The notes below the pieces were generated by a model. That model was given only the letters and a program-made list of their open reading frames with translations, had not been told where the DNA came from and did not search any database. Source: Pseudonocardia hierapolitana (GTDB lineage: Bacteria; Actinomycetota; Actinomycetes; Mycobacteriales; Pseudonocardiaceae). From it: a stretch of 64,000 nucleotides of DNA. Positions within the stretch are counted from its first letter, which is position 1; the number at the start of each line of letters is the position of its first letter. Position numbers and translations under genes: made by a program. The stretch is from positions 4,712,001 through 4,776,000 of the forward strand of contig NZ_VIWU01000001.1 in NCBI RefSeq assembly GCF_007994075.1. Reading direction: 5' to 3'. This document shows, in pieces, positions 49,231 to 58,484 of this stretch.

Positions 49231-50625
49231 TCATCGCAGGTACTGACAGGTGTCGCGGCGCACGAACCGGCCGTGGCCGGGTGCACCGAGGTACTCGCCC
49301 TTGTCGACGACCACCCGGCCCCGCGAGAGCACCGTCTCGGCCTTGCCGGTGACGGTGCGGCCCTCGTAGCAGGAGTAGTCGACGTTCATGTGGTGCGTCT
49401 CGGCGGAGAGCACCTGCTGCGCGTTCGGGTCGTAGACCACGATGTCGGCGTCCGCGCCGGGGGCGATCGTGCCCTTGCGCGGGTAGAGCCCGAACATCTT
49501 CGCCGGGGTGGCGCAGGCGATCTCGATCCAGCGCCTGCGGCCGATGTGCCCGTCCAGGACGGCCTGGTGCAGCAGGTCCATCCGGGTCTCGACGCCGGGT
49601 AGCCCGTTCGGGATCTTCGAGAAGTCCCCGAGGCCGAGCTCCTTCTGGTCCTTGAAGCAGAAGGGGCAGTGATCGGTGGAGACCACCGACAGGTCGTCGG
49701 TGCGCAGGCCCCGCCACAGCGCCGCCTGGTGCTCGGCGGGCCGCAGCGGTGTGGAGCAGACGTACTTCGCGCCCTCGAAGCCCGGCCGCGCGAGGTCGTC
49801 GACGTCGAGGAACAGGTACTGCGGGCAGGTCTCGGCGAACGCGTTGTAGCCCTCGTCGCGGGCCCGGCTCACCTCGGCGAGGGCCTCGGTGGCCGACAGG
49901 TGGACGATGTAGACGGGCGCGCCCGCCACCTGCGCCAGCCGGATCGCGCGGTGCGTCGCCTCGGCCTCCAGCAGCGCATGCCGCACCACGCCGTGGTACT
50001 TCGGGTCGGTCTGCCCGCGGGCGAGCGCCTGCGCCACGAGCACGTCGATCGCGATGCCGTTCTCGGCGTGCATCATGATCAGGCCGCCGGTCTCGGCGCC
50101 CTTCTGGAACGCGCGCAGGACCTTGCCGTCGTCGCTGTAGAAGACACCGGGATAGGCCATGAACAGCTTGAAGCTGGTGATGCCCTCGCCGACGAGGCCC
50201 TCCATCTCCTTGAGGGAGCCCTCGTTGACGTCCGCCATGATCATGTGGAACGCGTAGTCGATGGCGCAGTTGCCGTCGGCCTTCGCGTGCCAGGCGTCCA
50301 GGCCCTCGCGCAGGGACTTGCCCATCGACTGCACCGCGAAGTCGACGATCGTGGTGGTGCCGCCCCAGGCCGCCGCGCGGGTGCCGGTCTCGAACGTGTC
50401 GGACGCGAACGTGCCGCCGAACGGCAGCTCCATGTGCGTGTGGGCGTCGACCCCGCCCGGGATGACGTACTTGCCGGTGGCGTCGATGACCGTGTCGGCC
50501 GTCCAGCCCTGCGCGAACGCCGGGTCGGCCAGCGCCACCACCTTCTCGTCCTCGATCAGGACGTCCACCGCGCTCTCGTCGGACGCGGTGATCACGAGGC
50601 CGTTCCGGATCAGCGTGCGGGTCAT
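49231..50625 (-). CDS. hydA: Dihydropyrimidinase/D-hydantoinase
   Basis: Opens the ring of dihydrouracil, dihydrothymine or hydantoins. The 464-residue amidohydrolase has the HxH zinc motif DAHTHMELPFGG, the carboxylated Lys in ITSFKLFMAYPGVF, IVHLSATEAL, the Asp/His motif VVSTDHCPF and NGLPGVETRMDLLHQ. Full length. Its start overlaps the aminotransferase stop by ATGA, so both are co-translated. Confidence 0.94.
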   Translation of the reverse strand: MTRTLIRNGLVITASDESAVDVLIEDEKVVALADPAFAQGWTADTVIDATGKYVIPGGVDAHTHMELPFGGTFASDTFETGTRAAAWGGTTTIVDFAVQSMGKSLREGLDAWHAKADGNCAIDYAFHMIMADVNEGSLKEMEGLVGEGITSFKLFMAYPGVFYSDDGKVLRAFQKGAETGGLIMMHAENGIAIDVLVAQALARGQTDPKYHGVVRHALLEAEATHRAIRLAQVAGAPVYIVHLSATEALAEVSRARDEGYNAFAETCPQYLFLDVDDLARPGFEGAKYVCSTPLRPAEHQAALWRGLRTDDLSVVSTDHCPFCFKDQKELGLGDFSKIPNGLPGVETRMDLLHQAVLDGHIGRRRWIEIACATPAKMFGLYPRKGTIAPGADADIVVYDPNAQQVLSAETHHMNVDYSCYEGRTVTGKAETVLSRGRVVVDKGEYLGAPGHGRFVRRDTCQYLR

Positions 50626-51908
50626 GGCGTGACCTCCTCGATCGCGGCCACCAGGATGGCGAGGCCCTCGGCCGCCTCCTCGGCGGTGAGGGTGAGCAGC
50701 GGGGCGATCCGCAGCGCGTTGCCGTGCAGCCCGCCCTTGCCGATGAGCAACCCGCGCCGCTTGCACGCCTCGAGCACGGCGGTGGCGAGCTCGGGAGCCG
50801 GCTCGCCGGGCGTTCCCGTCCCGGGACGCACCAGCTCGACGCCGATCATCAGGCCCTTGCCGCGCACGTCGCCGACGATCGACGAGCCGAGCGCGCGCAG
50901 GCCGTCGAGCAGCGTGGGGCCGTGCCGGGCCGCATTGGCCTGCAGGTCGTGGTCGAGCACGTAGCGCAGGTTGGCCAGCGCGCCGGCGGACGTCAGCGGC
51001 GAGCCGCCGAACGTCGAGATGGAATTGGCGGTGAGGCAGTCCATCACCTCGGCTCGGGCGATCACCCCGCCCATCGACAGCCCGTTCCCGATGCCCTTGG
51101 CGAACGTGACGATGTCGGGTGTGGCGCCGTGGGACTCCCAGCCCCAGAAGTGCTCGCCGGTGCGGCCCCACCCGGTCTGCACCTCGTCGCTGATCCACAG
51201 GATGCCGCGTTCGCGCAGGACCTCGGCGAACGCGCCGAGCAGCCCGTCCGGGCCGGAGGTGAAGCCGCCGACGCCCTGGATCGGCTCGGCGATCAGCGCG
51301 GCGACGTCGCCGCCCGCCTGGTCGAGCACCTCCTTCAGATCGGCGACGCACGCGGCGATGAACTCGCCGTCCGACAGGTGCGCGAACGGGGAGCGGTACC
51401 GCTGGCTGCCGTGCACGTAGTAGACCTGGAACGGCGAGAGCGATGTGGGCGACCACGTCCGGTTCCCGGTGATCGCCACCGTCGAGAACGACCGCCCGTG
51501 GTAGCTGTTGCGCATCGCCAGTATCTGGTTGGACCGGCGAAGCGAGCTGGCGAGCAGCAACGCCGTGTCGTTCGCCTCCGTGCCCGACGTCGTGAGGAAG
51601 ACCTTCGCGTCGGGGATGTCGGAGACGGCCGCGATCTGCTCGGCCAGCTCCACCATCGGCCGGTTCAGGTAGAGCGTGGAGCTGTGGATGATCCGCCCGG
51701 CCTGGTCGCTGACGGCCTTGGTCACCTCGGGCAGCGCGTGGGCCGTCATCGTGGTGAGGATGCCGCCGAAGAAGTCCAGGTAGCGGTTGCCGTCGGCGTC
51801 CCAGACGTAACGGCCCTCGCCGCGCTCGATCTCGATCGGCTCCTGGTAGTAGATCGCCAGCCAGGATGGGAGGACGGCGCGCGTGCGGGCCAGCAGGTTG
51901 TCGGTCAT
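50622..51908 (-). CDS. Class III aminotransferase
   Basis: A 428-residue PLP enzyme: RGEGRYVWDADGNRYLDFFGGI, TSGTEANDTALLLA, ISDEVQTGWGRTGEHFWGWE, and PLP-Lys in VTFAKGIGNGLSMGG. In this cluster the likely job is transfer of the amino group from beta-alanine or 3-aminoisobutyrate, products of the neighbouring amidohydrolase, to pyruvate or 2-oxoglutarate. It overlaps both neighbours by four bases. Confidence 0.9.
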   Translation of the reverse strand: MTDNLLARTRAVLPSWLAIYYQEPIEIERGEGRYVWDADGNRYLDFFGGILTTMTAHALPEVTKAVSDQAGRIIHSSTLYLNRPMVELAEQIAAVSDIPDAKVFLTTSGTEANDTALLLASSLRRSNQILAMRNSYHGRSFSTVAITGNRTWSPTSLSPFQVYYVHGSQRYRSPFAHLSDGEFIAACVADLKEVLDQAGGDVAALIAEPIQGVGGFTSGPDGLLGAFAEVLRERGILWISDEVQTGWGRTGEHFWGWESHGATPDIVTFAKGIGNGLSMGGVIARAEVMDCLTANSISTFGGSPLTSAGALANLRYVLDHDLQANAARHGPTLLDGLRALGSSIVGDVRGKGLMIGVELVRPGTGTPGEPAPELATAVLEACKRRGLLIGKGGLHGNALRIAPLLTLTAEEAAEGLAILVAAIEEVTP

Positions 51909-52756
51909 GCCTCCACCAGCGGTCCGTAGGCGTCGGGACGGCGGTCGCGGTAGAACGCCCAGTTCTGGCGCACCTCGTCGATCAGCGCGAGATCCAGGTC
52001 GCGCACCACGAGCTCCTCGTCGCGGTCGGACGCCGGCTCACCGACGAACTGCCCGCGCGGGTCGACGAAGTAGCTGGTGCCGTAGAAGTCGTTGTCGCCG
52101 TACTCCTCCACGCCGACCCGGTTGATCGCGGCGATGAAGTACTCGTTGGCCACCGCGGCGGCCGGCTGCTCCAGCTTCCACAGGTACGACGACAGGCTGC
52201 GGCTGGTGGCGCTCGGGTTGTAGACGATCTGCGCCCCGGCCAGCCCCAGCGCGCGCCATCCTTCCGGGAAGTGCCGGTCGTAGCAGATGTAGACGCCGAC
52301 GCGGCCCACCGCGGTGTCGAAGACCGGCCAGCCGAGGTTGCCCGGGCGGAAGTAGAACTTCTCCCAGAAGCCCTTGACCTGCGGGATGTGGTGCTTGCGG
52401 TACTTGCCCAGGTAGTTGCCGTCGGCGTCGATCACGGCCGCGGTGTTGTAGTAGTTGCCCGCGCTCTCGATCTCGAACACCGGCACGACGAGCACCATGC
52501 CGAGCTCCTTGGCCAGCGCCTGCATCCGCTGGACGGTGGGACCGTCCGGCACCTGCTCGGCCCACCGGTAGTGCTCCGCCTCCTGCACCTGGCAGAAGTA
52601 CGGCGCGTTGAAGACCTCCTGGAAGCCCATGATCTGCGCGCCCTGCTCGGCGGCCGACCGTGCGTACTTCTCGTGCACCTCGATCATCGAGGCGGTGTCG
52701 CCCGTCCATTTCGCCTGCAACAGCGCCGCGCGCACCACCCGGGACTCTCCCGCCAT
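51905..52756 (-). CDS. Beta-ureidopropionase-like nitrilase-superfamily hydrolase
   Basis: A 283-residue C-N hydrolase. The catalytic triad is Glu in MGFQEVFNAPYF, Lys in KYRKHHIPQVKGFWEKFYF and Cys in VGVYICYDRHFPE. The sequence between matches N-carbamoyl-beta-alanine amidohydrolases, which release beta-alanine, CO2 and ammonia. It is the first gene of the minus-strand cluster. No dihydropyrimidine dehydrogenase is present in the window. Confidence 0.9.
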   Translation of the reverse strand: MAGESRVVRAALLQAKWTGDTASMIEVHEKYARSAAEQGAQIMGFQEVFNAPYFCQVQEAEHYRWAEQVPDGPTVQRMQALAKELGMVLVVPVFEIESAGNYYNTAAVIDADGNYLGKYRKHHIPQVKGFWEKFYFRPGNLGWPVFDTAVGRVGVYICYDRHFPEGWRALGLAGAQIVYNPSATSRSLSSYLWKLEQPAAAVANEYFIAAINRVGVEEYGDNDFYGTSYFVDPRGQFVGEPASDRDEELVVRDLDLALIDEVRQNWAFYRDRRPDAYGPLVEA

Positions 52757-52933
52757 CGCCAGACCTCCGACGTCATCGCCCAGAAGGGGACACCTTCGAA
52801 CGCGGACGGGCTCGCTCGCAAGACCCAATCCGGGACGGTGCGGAGCCCGTCACGCACTCGTGTCATGGCGGACATGGTTGCCACCCGATCCGCGCTTGTG
52901 GTCCGCTCGAACCGGCGGGGATCGGGGGGCGGG

Positions 52934-54873: not shown

Positions 54874-55134
54874 ATGGCGAGCATCGAAGAGGTCAGAGCC
54901 GGCATCGCGCTGGCCAACGACAAGGCCTCGGAGAGCCTCGGGGCGCTGCAGCAGGCGCACTCCTCCCTCGAGCAGGCGCAGGGGGCGTTGCAGCAGGTGA
55001 CGGAGGGCAGCACGCAGGCCGACGTCTCGGAGGCGAACGGGCTGCTCGCCCAGGCCGTCGGCAGCATCAGCGAGGTGCAGAACCAGGTGCAGGCCGCGAT
55101 CCAGGCGTCAGAAGGCGTCGCCAACAGGCTGTGA
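54874..55134 (+). CDS. Small helical protein A of the FtsK cassette
   Basis: An 86-residue protein, MASIEEVRAGIALANDKASE onwards, made of two long Ala/Gln-rich amphipathic helices with a short turn (residues 45-52). No signal or membrane helix. It shows a weak repeat of the pattern of the next protein (EVRAxxA at the start, LExAxxxL in the middle), so the two look like paralogues. No WXG motif, although the length and helix-hairpin form resemble WXG100 proteins. First gene of the four-gene cassette. Confidence 0.8.
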   Translation: MASIEEVRAGIALANDKASESLGALQQAHSSLEQAQGALQQVTEGSTQADVSEANGLLAQAVGSISEVQNQVQAAIQASEGVANRL

Positions 55135-55382
55135 GCGATCTGGGGGAGGTGCGGGCCGTCCTGGCAGGGGTGGCCGAGCAGCTCGGCAGCGCCTACCAGC
55201 AGGCCGGGATCGCCCGTGCCCGGCTCGAGGATGCCGTGGCCGTGCTCGACGGGCTGGGTGAGCAGCACTCGGAGCCGCTGGTGCCCGCCGAGCTGCTGCA
55301 GGCGACGGAGGAGCTGGAGCGCGGTCTGGGGCTGATCACCGGCGGCGCGTCCGCGGTGGCCGACATCGACGCGCGGTTGTAG
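55131..55382 (+). CDS. Small helical protein B of the FtsK cassette
   Basis: An 83-residue acidic protein, MSDLGEVRAVLAGVAEQLGS onwards, helical throughout. Its GTG start overlaps protein A by GTGA. It shares with protein A the spacing EVRA, then LExAxxxL, so a heterodimer is possible. No known domain. It is followed by the ATPase gene after 7 bases. Confidence 0.8.
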   Translation: MSDLGEVRAVLAGVAEQLGSAYQQAGIARARLEDAVAVLDGLGEQHSEPLVPAELLQATEELERGLGLITGGASAVADIDARL

Positions 55383-55389
55383 GTCTCAC

Positions 55390-58131
55390 ATGGCACGCGG
55401 GCCCAGCAAGCGGCAGCAGCGCATCGCCACGGCGTTCGACGCGCTGTGCGACGCGATCGCGCGGGCGCTCGGGGCCGCGGAAGGGGCGCGCGAGTCGGCG
55501 GTGCGCGCGCACGCCGAGGCGATGGTCGAGATGTGGCTGCGCGAGGAGGGGCTCGACGCGGCCGAGACCGATCCCGGACTGCGCAGGCTGCTGGCGAACC
55601 CCGCGCTCGCCAGGCCGATCAAGCGGGTGGAGTTCGATCGCAAGGCCGCGTTCCGGGAGTGGCTCGCCACCGGTCCGCGGCGGCTCACGCAGATCCTCGC
55701 GGAGGCGGCGCCGGACGCAGCCGGTGGCGATCCCGACGAGTGGCTCGGCCAGGTCGGCAAGATCGACGGAATGGGCCCGGTGCCGTCGCTCTGGACGATC
55801 GGCACCGGGCGGATCGGCGGTGCGGAGCCGGGGTTCCCGGTCGCGGTTCCCCTGCTCGACGAGTCGCACCTGCAGATCACGTCCACCCACGACAGCCGCG
55901 CCCGCGCCGAGGCGCTGGTGGAGAACCTGCTGCTGCGGGTGATGAGCAGCTTCCGGCCGGGGGTCGTGCAGGTGCACGTCTGGGACGTCGGCCGGTTCAC
56001 CGGCTCCTTGCCCGGCCTCTACCCGCTCACCCGCACCGGGCTGCTCACCGTGCACGACCCCGGGATGCTCGACGAGCTGCTCGAGGAGCTGTCGGACCGG
56101 ATCCGCCGCGTCCACACCCGCGTGCTCGTCGACGGGCACCCGTCCCTGCGGGCGATGGCCGAGACGAACGGCGGTCGCACCGAGCCGTGGATCGTCGCGG
56201 TGCTCCTGGGCAACCGGGCGGCGCTGAAGGACACCGAGCACCGCCAGCTGCAGCGGGTGGCGCGTGACGGCCCGGCCTGCGGGGTGCAGCTGGTGCTGCT
56301 GGACGTGCCCATGACGGTCAACGCGCCCATCGAGACGGTCCGCCTCGACGACGCCGGGGTCGCCACCTCCTCGATGACCGGCCCGTACGTCGCGGTCGAG
56401 CCGGACCCACCGCTGCCGCCCGCCGACGTCACCCGCGCCGCCCACGCCATCGCCGACGAGCACGAGCGCTGGCGCAGCCGGATCGGCACGTTCGCCGACC
56501 TGCTGCCCTCGCGGGAGAAGTGGGGCGGGTCCCGGTCGATCAGCGGCCTGCACGCACCCGTGGGCTTCACCGACGGCCTACCGGCACACGTCTCGCTGGC
56601 CGACGCATCCCCGCACGCGCTGATCGGCGGCCCGAGCGGGTCGGGGAAGACCAACCTCCTGCTCACCATGATCAGCTCGATGGCCGCCCGCTACGGCCCG
56701 GACGAGCTCGAGTTCTACCTCCTCGACTTCAAGGAGGGCGTGTCCTTCGCCCAGTTCGCCCCGGGGCGGCGGGACCGGACGTGGTTGCCGCACGCGCGGC
56801 TGATCGGCGTCAACATCAACACCGACCGCGAGTTCGGGCTCGCGCTCCTGCAGTTCCTCTCCGACGAGATGCGCCGCCGTGCGGAGGCGGCCAAGGCGCA
56901 CGAGGTGACGAAGCTGGAGGAGCTGCGCCGCGAGGACCCGACGGGCCGGTGGCCGCGGATCGTCGCCGTGATCGACGAGTTCCAGTACCTGTTCGCCGAA
57001 CGCGACGCCGTCACGCGCCAGGCCACCCTCCTGCTGGAGGACGTGGCGCGGCGTGGGCGCTCCCAGGGCATCCACCTGGTGCTCGCGAGCCAGGACGTGT
57101 CCGGGATCGAGGCGTTCTGGGGGCGTCCGGCGATCTTCGAGCAGTTCGTGCTGCGGATCGCGCTGCCGCGGGCGCGGCGCGTGCTCGCCGAGCTGAACGA
57201 CGCCACGCTCGGCCTCCCGCGCTGGCACGCTGTGATCAACCACGAGTCGGGCATCACGCACGGCAACGAGGTGGTGCGCATCCCGGACGCCACCGGCAAG
57301 GGGTCGGTCGACGAGGTGCAGCGCATCCTCCACGACGCCCACGCCGAGAACAGGCCGGAGCCCCGGCTGTTCGACGGGAGCCGCTCGCCGCGCCTCGCCG
57401 AGCTGCTCGCCGTCCTGCCTGCGGGCGACGTGCCGCGGGCGCTCGTGGGGCAGTGCATCGACGTGGCGGGCAGTGCGGCCGCGATCGGGCTGCCGGACGC
57501 GCCGGGGCGCAACCTCGGCGTGCTCGCCTCCGGTGTGCGGGAGGCGGTGCGCGTGCTGGGGGCTGCCGCCGCGTCACTGGCGGGGCAGCACGCGCGCGAC
57601 ACGCTCGACGTGGTGATCGCCCCGCTGATCGCGGAGGCGTTCGAGCCTGCGGATCGGCTCGCCGAGCGGGTGGCCGGCGCGGGGCAGCGGGTCGAGACGG
57701 TCCGGCTGGACGGCTTCCGGGCGCGCGTCGAGGCGCTGGCGCAGGAGGTGACCGAGCGGCTGGCCGGCACCGCGTCGCGCCATCCCGTGGCGCTCGTGCT
57801 CTACGCCGCAGACGCCGCCGAGACGGCGCTGGACCGGGCCGGCACCGAGGCGCTGCGGAAGATCATGCACTTCGGCCCGGAGACCGGGGTGCACGTGCTC
57901 GGCTGGTGGCGCAGCCCGGCGCGGCTGAAGGCGTTGCTCATGATGGGCGCCTCGCCCGACGACCTGGGGGCGTGGGTGGCCCTCGACGTCCAGGGCTCCG
58001 AGGTGCAGCCGCTCGTGCCCGGCATGTTCGTCACGTGGTCACCCCGGCCCGGGCGGGGACTGCTGTTCGACCGGGCCCAGCACACCCAGCCGGAGGTGGT
58101 CATCGTGGCGTCGCTGGAGGACCGGTCGTGA
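55390..58131 (+). CDS. FtsK/SpoIIIE-family ATPase of an uncharacterised cassette
   Basis: A 913-residue cytoplasmic protein without membrane helices. Residues 1-110 are an N-terminal helical domain. Residues about 150-330 resemble a RecA-like fold without Walker motifs. Residues about 395-640 are an intact FtsK domain: Walker A GGPSGSGKTN with K420, Walker B VIDEFQYLF with D529/E530, and SQD at the gamma-sensor strand (LVLASQDVSG). Residues about 690-905 resemble another degenerate ATPase fold (LRKIMHFGPETGVHVLGWWRS). The order pseudo-active-pseudo recalls EccC of type VII secretion. Function unknown. Confidence 0.85.
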   Translation: MARGPSKRQQRIATAFDALCDAIARALGAAEGARESAVRAHAEAMVEMWLREEGLDAAETDPGLRRLLANPALARPIKRVEFDRKAAFREWLATGPRRLTQILAEAAPDAAGGDPDEWLGQVGKIDGMGPVPSLWTIGTGRIGGAEPGFPVAVPLLDESHLQITSTHDSRARAEALVENLLLRVMSSFRPGVVQVHVWDVGRFTGSLPGLYPLTRTGLLTVHDPGMLDELLEELSDRIRRVHTRVLVDGHPSLRAMAETNGGRTEPWIVAVLLGNRAALKDTEHRQLQRVARDGPACGVQLVLLDVPMTVNAPIETVRLDDAGVATSSMTGPYVAVEPDPPLPPADVTRAAHAIADEHERWRSRIGTFADLLPSREKWGGSRSISGLHAPVGFTDGLPAHVSLADASPHALIGGPSGSGKTNLLLTMISSMAARYGPDELEFYLLDFKEGVSFAQFAPGRRDRTWLPHARLIGVNINTDREFGLALLQFLSDEMRRRAEAAKAHEVTKLEELRREDPTGRWPRIVAVIDEFQYLFAERDAVTRQATLLLEDVARRGRSQGIHLVLASQDVSGIEAFWGRPAIFEQFVLRIALPRARRVLAELNDATLGLPRWHAVINHESGITHGNEVVRIPDATGKGSVDEVQRILHDAHAENRPEPRLFDGSRSPRLAELLAVLPAGDVPRALVGQCIDVAGSAAAIGLPDAPGRNLGVLASGVREAVRVLGAAAASLAGQHARDTLDVVIAPLIAEAFEPADRLAERVAGAGQRVETVRLDGFRARVEALAQEVTERLAGTASRHPVALVLYAADAAETALDRAGTEALRKIMHFGPETGVHVLGWWRSPARLKALLMMGASPDDLGAWVALDVQGSEVQPLVPGMFVTWSPRPGRGLLFDRAQHTQPEVVIVASLEDRS

Positions 58132-58484
58132 CCGCGGCGCGGGAGTACAAGGAGGTCGTCGCCGGCATCGCGGCGGCGGCCGAGGCCCTGCGCGAGCGCG
58201 ACCGCGAGCGCGCGGCGGCCTTGAACCGCGAGCTGGTCGGGCTGGGCGAGGCCATGGCACGCGCGGAGGAGCGCGCCGGCCTCACCCGCCTCGGCGTCGA
58301 GCTGCACTGGGAGGCCGCGCTCGAGGCCCTCTGGGTGGAGTCCTGGATGAAGCTGCGCCCCCGCCCCGGCCCGGACAGGCGGGCCGACCCGGCGGCCATC
58401 GACGAGCGGGACGACGAGGTGGAGGCGAGGGCGGCGGAGCTGCTGGAGGCGACCCGCCGCCGCTGGGGCCTGCCCCGCCGCTGA
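58128..58484 (+). CDS. Helical protein C of the FtsK cassette
   Basis: A 118-residue charged helical protein, starting VTAAREYKEVVAGIAAAAEALRERDRERAAALNRELVGLGEAMARAEERAGL. Heptads suggest a coiled coil over residues 5-50. A short Pro-rich break follows and then a second helix to the C-terminus. It overlaps the ATPase stop by GTGA, so it is co-translated. No family recognised. Confidence 0.75.
   Translation: MTAAREYKEVVAGIAAAAEALRERDRERAAALNRELVGLGEAMARAEERAGLTRLGVELHWEAALEALWVESWMKLRPRPGPDRRADPAAIDERDDEVEARAAELLEATRRRWGLPRR

Follow-up and report, generated by a model that had tools for sequence, protein, structure and literature searches.

A conserved gene cassette of Pseudonocardiaceae encoding a predicted soluble EccC-like ATPase and two small paralogous partners

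The actinobacterium Pseudonocardia hierapolitana carries on its complete chromosome of 8.86 Mb a cassette of four genes, named here A, B, T and C, which lies within the window of 64,000 nucleotides analysed in this work (contig NZ_VIWU01000001.1, positions 4,712,001 to 4,776,000). T encodes an ATPase of the FtsK/SpoIIIE family related to EccC, the ATPase of type VII secretion, and A and B encode small paralogous proteins; the database labels for this gene set are only FtsK/SpoIIIE or hypothetical. We propose, as an interpretation with about an even chance of being correct, that the cassette encodes an EccC-derived intracellular protein-handling ring with a single motor, which is loaded or switched on by the hairpins formed by A and B. 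The computed basis of this proposal is a conserved operon, one active centre, an EccC-like domain order in the structural model of T, the paralogy of A and B, and the hydrophobic-xxx-Leu C-termini of both.

T matches the Pfam family FtsK_SpoIIIE (E 1.6e-20), and its AlphaFold2 model contains three RecA-like domains that match those of EccC: a DUF-like domain, an FtsK-like motor and an ATPase3-like domain. With Foldseek the model matched EccC (4nh0, E 4.6e-30). A first-pass annotation, made from the letters of this DNA, had claimed a single intact pair of Walker A and B motifs flanked by RecA-like folds devoid of motifs, and both statements were borne out: K420, D529 and E530 are kept in nearly all of 57 T sequences (Table 1), and the motif-free folds on either side of the motor are seen in the model, the structural check that had been set beforehand. 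In the C-terminal domain the stretch that matches the P-loop has an alanine (A719) in 55 of the 57 sequences, and the residues P830, H835, W839, W840 and R845 of the family signature in this domain are present in 54, 52, 56, 53 and 53 of them, respectively. T is like EccC/EssC (4nh0, TIGR03924) in having the FtsK/SpoIIIE motor together with DUF-like and ATPase3-like domains; in contrast, it is without membrane helices and has one RecA-like domain fewer than EccC, which includes the DUF and three ATPases. Its scores against the equivalog models of EccCa (TIGR03924), EccCb and EssC (90.7, 59.0 and 82.9 bits) are below all the cut-offs (509.15, 346.55 and 778.4). A membrane segment was predicted where a hydropathy window reached at least 1.6, and the highest window of T is 1.36; the ATPases of type VII secretion are membrane-bound, whereas residues 6-106 of T are long helices in the model. 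The same threshold flags 38 of 78 T relatives, where it probably detects core strands, so the model is the better guide to membrane segments. T is predicted to be a soluble EccC relative with one working ATPase centre.

The four reading frames were found where the first-pass annotation had placed them, and with the same lengths. It had also described three of four stop-start junctions as tight; all are indeed close (A/B, -4, and T/C, -4, each through a shared GTGA; B/T, +7), but four genes have three junctions. The ratio of nonsynonymous to synonymous substitutions (dN/dS), a rough Nei-Gojobori estimate against the relatives L051 and L053, is 0.12-0.32 for all four genes, and these values show, at the level of sequence comparison, that all of them are under purifying selection. 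We examined 41 Pseudonocardiaceae loci from about 60 with a T match; every one of the 41 has A, T and C, which along with the low dN/dS indicates that the cassette is more than a chance arrangement, and B is present in 29. The survey of homologue neighbourhoods that had been set as a refuting test thus found that A, B and C do occur beside T. The gene order across these loci is A-(B)-T-C; L065 and L094 show a different order, which fits open reading frames extended to the first possible start. Second-copy loci, beyond the 41, were found with A only (L076) or with a true WXG100 gene instead (L099). In the Pseudonocardia locus L058, about 1.1 kb with a frame of 227 aa separates B from T. A gene of the same kind as T is present in 32 of 36 Pseudonocardia genomes and fragmented in one more (G029); it was not found in G006, G021 and G026, whose assemblies are 72, 88 and 92% complete. 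All 29 Pseudonocardiaceae genomes among the matches listed carry T, and none of 20 genomes examined among the 134 without a match belongs to this family. Of 23 Pseudonocardia genomes, 22 have exactly one A and none has two; A adjoins T in 21 of these 22, and in G021 it lies at a contig end.

The AlphaFold2 model of A is a hairpin (predicted local distance difference test, pLDDT, 94.7) with helices at residues 4-42 and 49-85. The paralogy of A and B, suggested earlier from the sequence, was confirmed by profile comparison (hhalign probability 96%, E 4e-9); A and C compared in this way gave 0.1%. A is like the WXG100 proteins (ESAT-6/CFP-10, EsxA) in being a helical hairpin of about 86 aa, with a glycine at the turn, whose gene lies beside that of an EccC-like ATPase, and against a WXG100 profile drawn from the same bacterial order it gave a probability of 34% (E 4e-4) with Gly45 aligned on the glycine of WxG. 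In contrast to WXG100 proteins, A and B are without the tryptophan: the lack of WxG noted in the first reading holds for 48 A and 25 B sequences (0/48 and 0/25, vs 16 of 18 WXG100 controls). Likewise YxxxD/E is nearly absent (0/48 A and 1/25 B, vs 14/18 controls), and neither A nor B matched PF06013 with E as high as 1. The C-terminal pattern HxxxD/ExxhxxxH, as given in the available part of PMC3935865, occurs in 5/48 A and 7/25 B and is uninformative because the WXG100 controls, whose ends were trimmed, gave 0/18. In nearly all A and in every B sequence, a hydrophobic residue and Leu/Ile separated by three positions stand flush with the carboxyl end (Table 1). These tails resemble that of Thermomonospora EsxB, in which, according to the part of PMC6954902 that we could consult, V98 and L102 insert into a pocket of ATPase3.

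The product of C, read as helical from its sequence, matched no Pfam family, and none of 41 C-family proteins has a hydropathy window at or above the threshold. Among 36 loci in which T is not followed by C, 28 have a gene for a protein with predicted membrane segments directly after T, and in a further 3 such a gene comes one place later. The claim that the ATPase has no membrane partner therefore stands for the Pseudonocardiaceae cassette and fails elsewhere. The idea that C is a shortened membrane anchor was rejected: comparing its profile with seven of the membrane proteins that occupy this position yielded a probability of 1.7%, so that position is all that C and these proteins have in common. 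EccB and the YukD-type domain have one match each in the genome, both at an ESX locus that also includes WXG100; this locus is near 4.46 Mb and so some 300 kb away from the cassette.

Table 1. Features of the cassette, in coordinates of the window
Feature	Position	Strand	Description
A	54874-55134	+	86 aa; predicted helical hairpin, WXG100-like without W
Turn of A			Gly45 within conserved G-[ST]-x-[QH]; G45 kept in 46/48 A
C-terminal tail of A	55117-55131	+	V-A-N-R-L-COOH, hydrophobic-xxx-Leu flush with the end; pattern in 46/48 A
B	55131-55382	+	83 aa, GTG start; paralogue of A, 4-base overlap with A
C-terminal tail of B	55365-55379	+	I-D-A-R-L-COOH; pattern in 25/25 B
T	55390-58131	+	913 aa; EccC-like FtsK/SpoIIIE-family ATPase; model without membrane segment
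T residues 6-106	55405-55707	+	N-terminal long helices (model), at the position of the membrane helices of EccC/EssC
T residues 112-360	55723-56469	+	DUF-like RecA-fold domain, Walker motifs lacking
T residues 364-652	56479-57345	+	Single FtsK-like motor
Walker A, residues 414-421	56629-56652	+	GPSGSGKT; G414 in 57/57, K420 in 55/57
Walker B, residues 525-530	56962-56979	+	VAVIDE; D529 in 57/57, E530 in 56/57
T residues 660-911	57367-58122	+	ATPase3-like domain, degenerate P-loop
T residues 829-845	57874-57924	+	Family signature GPxxxxHVLGWWRxxxR, within the ATPase3-like domain
C	58128-58484	+	118 aa, GTG start; small, mostly charged; 4-base overlap with T

Genes of the T family were also found in Micromonosporaceae and Frankiaceae (assignments read from tree neighbours), Geodermatophilaceae, Bifidobacterium, Actinomyces, Bacillota and Planctomycetota. 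In a wider survey of the best 80 of 514 T-family loci, 52 had hairpin matches, and 73 of these 75 matches were on the strand of T; Hsp70 was present in 15 loci, a DnaJ/TPR-type protein in 18, and Hsp70 together with a hairpin in 12. Nine planctomycete loci gave no match to A or B, one a WXG-like match. In a motor tree of 73 of 113 sequences, built by a quick method and subject to a long-branch warning, 69 of the 73 motors, T among them, are set apart from FtsK and the two EccC-like proteins of the same genome and from one further row (Shimodaira-Hasegawa-like approximate likelihood ratio test, SH-aLRT, 97). T of the cassette groups with sequences from Pseudonocardiaceae and Micromonosporaceae. 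All 10 Hsp70-bearing rows fall in one branch of 19, and the Caballeronia TerY-P-type and Helicobacter plasmid loci share another branch with planctomycete rows and the WXG100-bearing L100 and L099.

Clusters of Hsp70, a DnaJ/TPR protein, a T-family ATPase and an A-like hairpin were observed in L071, L089, L144, L158, L165, L166, L168, L169, L184, L207 and others; they span several actinobacterial groups and a Saccharibacteria-type metagenome-assembled genome, and the DnaJ/TPR protein appears from its sequence to be membrane-anchored in some. In the Bacillota loci L176, L177, L185 and L187, two or three A-like matches and Hsp70 come after T. The Hsp70-DnaJ/TPR-FtsK loci (L071, L158, L165-L169 and others) are like the cassette in pairing a T-family ATPase with an A-like hairpin, and mostly have a membrane protein near; unlike the cassette, they carry Hsp70, DnaJ/TPR and, in L158, GrpE, which are absent beside its T. 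Other conflict loci with Hsp70, GrpE and DnaJ, centred on GTPases, are described in the available part of PMC7159879, and our literature search found no paper on the Hsp70-linked T branch. In a Micromonosporaceae-type genome (L083:12167-14746, +), a CHAT-domain protein (PF12770, 1.6e-19), whose start reads by eye like a TIR domain, follows the T locus.

In the proposed intracellular ring, A and B, or two A molecules where B is missing, would pair into a WXG100-like four-helix bundle. Their tails may dock on the ATPase3-like domain of T, as the EsxB tail does on ATPase3 of EccC; docking would promote ring assembly and relieve the single motor, which would then pull or remodel a helical protein. 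The cargo may be A and B themselves or a protein presented by them, and C may be a soluble adaptor in the place held by a membrane-anchored protein in the relatives. Neither a channel partner nor an export signal nor an effector family came to light, and a role inside the cell is favoured for that reason. The earlier suggestion that T is a soluble relative of EccC acting on small helical partners gains support from the fold seen over the length of T, the conservation of its one motor and its close linkage to A.

Several observations count against this interpretation. The top Foldseek match of A, ESAT-6/CFP-10, is not significant (E 0.30), and its profile similarity to WXG100 is marginal: the reversed alignment scored 18.9 vs 24.0 for the real one. 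None of 200 column shuffles equalled the real score; rotations by 7 and by 84 scored as high as the real order, since they leave most of the column order intact. B gave no detectable similarity to the WXG100 profile (probability 1%), and membership of A and B in WXG100 was not adopted, the case being marginal for A and empty for B. B is absent from 12 of the 41 Pseudonocardiaceae loci. Of 37 loci outside this family, 19 have A close to T and 2 have it at a greater distance, and in 16 it was not found. Positions -11 and -15 of A and B are also hydrophobic, so that the tail may be part of core packing or a helix seam and not a docking element; among the looser hairpin matches of the 80 wider loci, only 47 of 75 share the tail pattern. 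Finally, C has no detectable homology to the membrane proteins found in its place.

Soluble relatives of EssC have been reported before. According to the part of PMC11090510 available to us, extended Type III-A CoCoNuT loci have EssC homologues in which only the central domain is active and a coiled coil replaces the membrane helices, each module includes two WXG100 proteins, one of them without WxG, and stand-alone versions of these homologues are credited to an earlier study. As far as that account goes, T is like the CoCoNuT EssC in that it is predicted to be soluble, that among its three ATPase domains activity is predicted for the central one alone, and that its N-terminal helices replace membrane helices; the cassette also has small WXG100-type partners. 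It is unlike the CoCoNuT loci described there in that it lacks TerY-P, VWA, nuclease and McrBC-type genes, neither of its hairpins keeps WxG whereas one of the CoCoNuT pair does, and it has the C gene, is chromosomal and is conserved through a family. Given this published description, the kind is already known; what is new is the family-wide chromosomal form, the presence of C, the dedicated hairpins that lack W and share a constant C-terminus, and the sister branch linked to Hsp70. No paper on the A-B-T-C cassette was found in the literature searched. In the Caballeronia plasmid pSBC2-5 (L159, 5417-18852), genes for VWA, WXG100, a T-family ATPase, CARF, VWA, PP2C, a kinase and AAA stand in a row; this row resembles the extended loci in the consulted part of that paper, and its motor falls inside the T family. 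The cassette neighbours tested against Pfam, namely a major facilitator superfamily transporter, a carboxymuconolactone decarboxylase-family protein, a beta-helix protein and a carbon-nitrogen hydrolase, include no CoCoNuT or TerY-P genes, the rest of the window not having been scanned. The hydrolase (PF00795) lies beside frames that by eye resemble an aminotransferase and a dihydropyrimidinase (49231-52828, -), and this group may possibly serve reductive pyrimidine breakdown.

It seems to us unlikely that the cassette is a minimal type VII secretion system, in which T would export A and B as folded dimers through a pore encoded elsewhere or shared with the ESX system of this genome. Such a system would account for the EccC-like fold of T and its WXG100-like partners, and it would have at hand the EccB, YukD-type domain and WXG100 of the ESX locus; relatives in other families do have a membrane-segment protein beside T, and PMC11090510, in the part available, contends that secretion is implied by such partners even where the EssC-like ATPase is soluble. 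However, there is no clear membrane segment in T, A, B or C by hydropathy or, for T, in the model, WxG occurs in none and YxxxD/E in one of the 73 A and B sequences, an effector-like paralogue of A was not found in the genome, and the T7SSc to T7SSj ATPases, as presented in the accessible part of PMC11217815, are all membrane-bound. The secretion-system label was rejected because membrane helices, scores at the equivalog cut-offs, WxG, and EccB and YukD partners at the locus were looked for and were not found.

A defence or conflict system, in which T would belong to a wider group of anti-phage or stress ATPases and A and B would act as the trigger, appears more doubtful still. Defence genes are usually patchy in their spread, whereas T is in every Pseudonocardiaceae genome among the matches listed. 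In favour of this reading, the Caballeronia homologue, which falls inside the T family, is accompanied by VWA, WXG100, CARF, PP2C and kinase genes, as in the TerY-P/CoCoNuT extensions. The PADLOC models mad8 and SspH match T, but only over the motor, and the cassette itself is without any gene for a nuclease, a kinase or a sensor. On a phage structural contig there is a solitary homologue of A, possibly a decoy for the T machine; a single such contig was found. Very improbable, in our judgement, is an FtsK-related DNA translocase that A, B and C would assist; only the kinship of the motor speaks for it. The first-pass annotation had left room for a DNA-translocating complex, and this found no support: the structure-wide match is EccC, the domains flanking the motor match the DUF and ATPase3 of EccC and not FtsK, which matches the motor domain only, the partners are hairpin proteins, and the T branch stands apart from the genome's own FtsK and EccC in the quick tree described above. 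FtsK DNA translocases have a DNA-binding gamma domain after the motor; in the model of T this region is the ATPase3-like domain, although no search aimed at a gamma domain was made.

The phage-borne homologue of A (IMGVR_UViG_3300028596_000202 of IMG/VR; L157:4095-4355, +) is 44-47% identical, has the same length and ends in I-N-G-R-L; its gene runs opposite to the phage structural genes that surround it, among them those for terminase, portal, head protease and scaffold. In the plasmid and phage collections T had no match over 80% of its length, the phage-borne T-like matches covering mostly the motor, and A had no match in the collection of phage records.

More tentatively, and as something possible rather than probable, the cassette may be the core of a machine derived from type VII secretion that gave up secretion and became a single-copy housekeeping protein-handling motor of Pseudonocardiaceae, with dedicated hairpin loaders that dock by their free hydrophobic-xxx-Leu end. 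The relatives of this motor, some of them coupled to Hsp70, DnaJ and GrpE and others held at the membrane, would then form an unrecognised class of EccC-type intracellular chaperone motors in Actinomycetota and Bacillota. If the proposal is correct, the EccC motor and WXG100-type hairpins also serve work inside the cell, and the job of the motor is separable from that of the secretion pore. Since the set is small, predicted to be soluble and single copy, it would allow docking, ring assembly and the control of the ATPase by hairpin dimers to be studied with no membrane complex involved. A gene set carried by all the Pseudonocardiaceae genomes among the matches listed would also gain a role.

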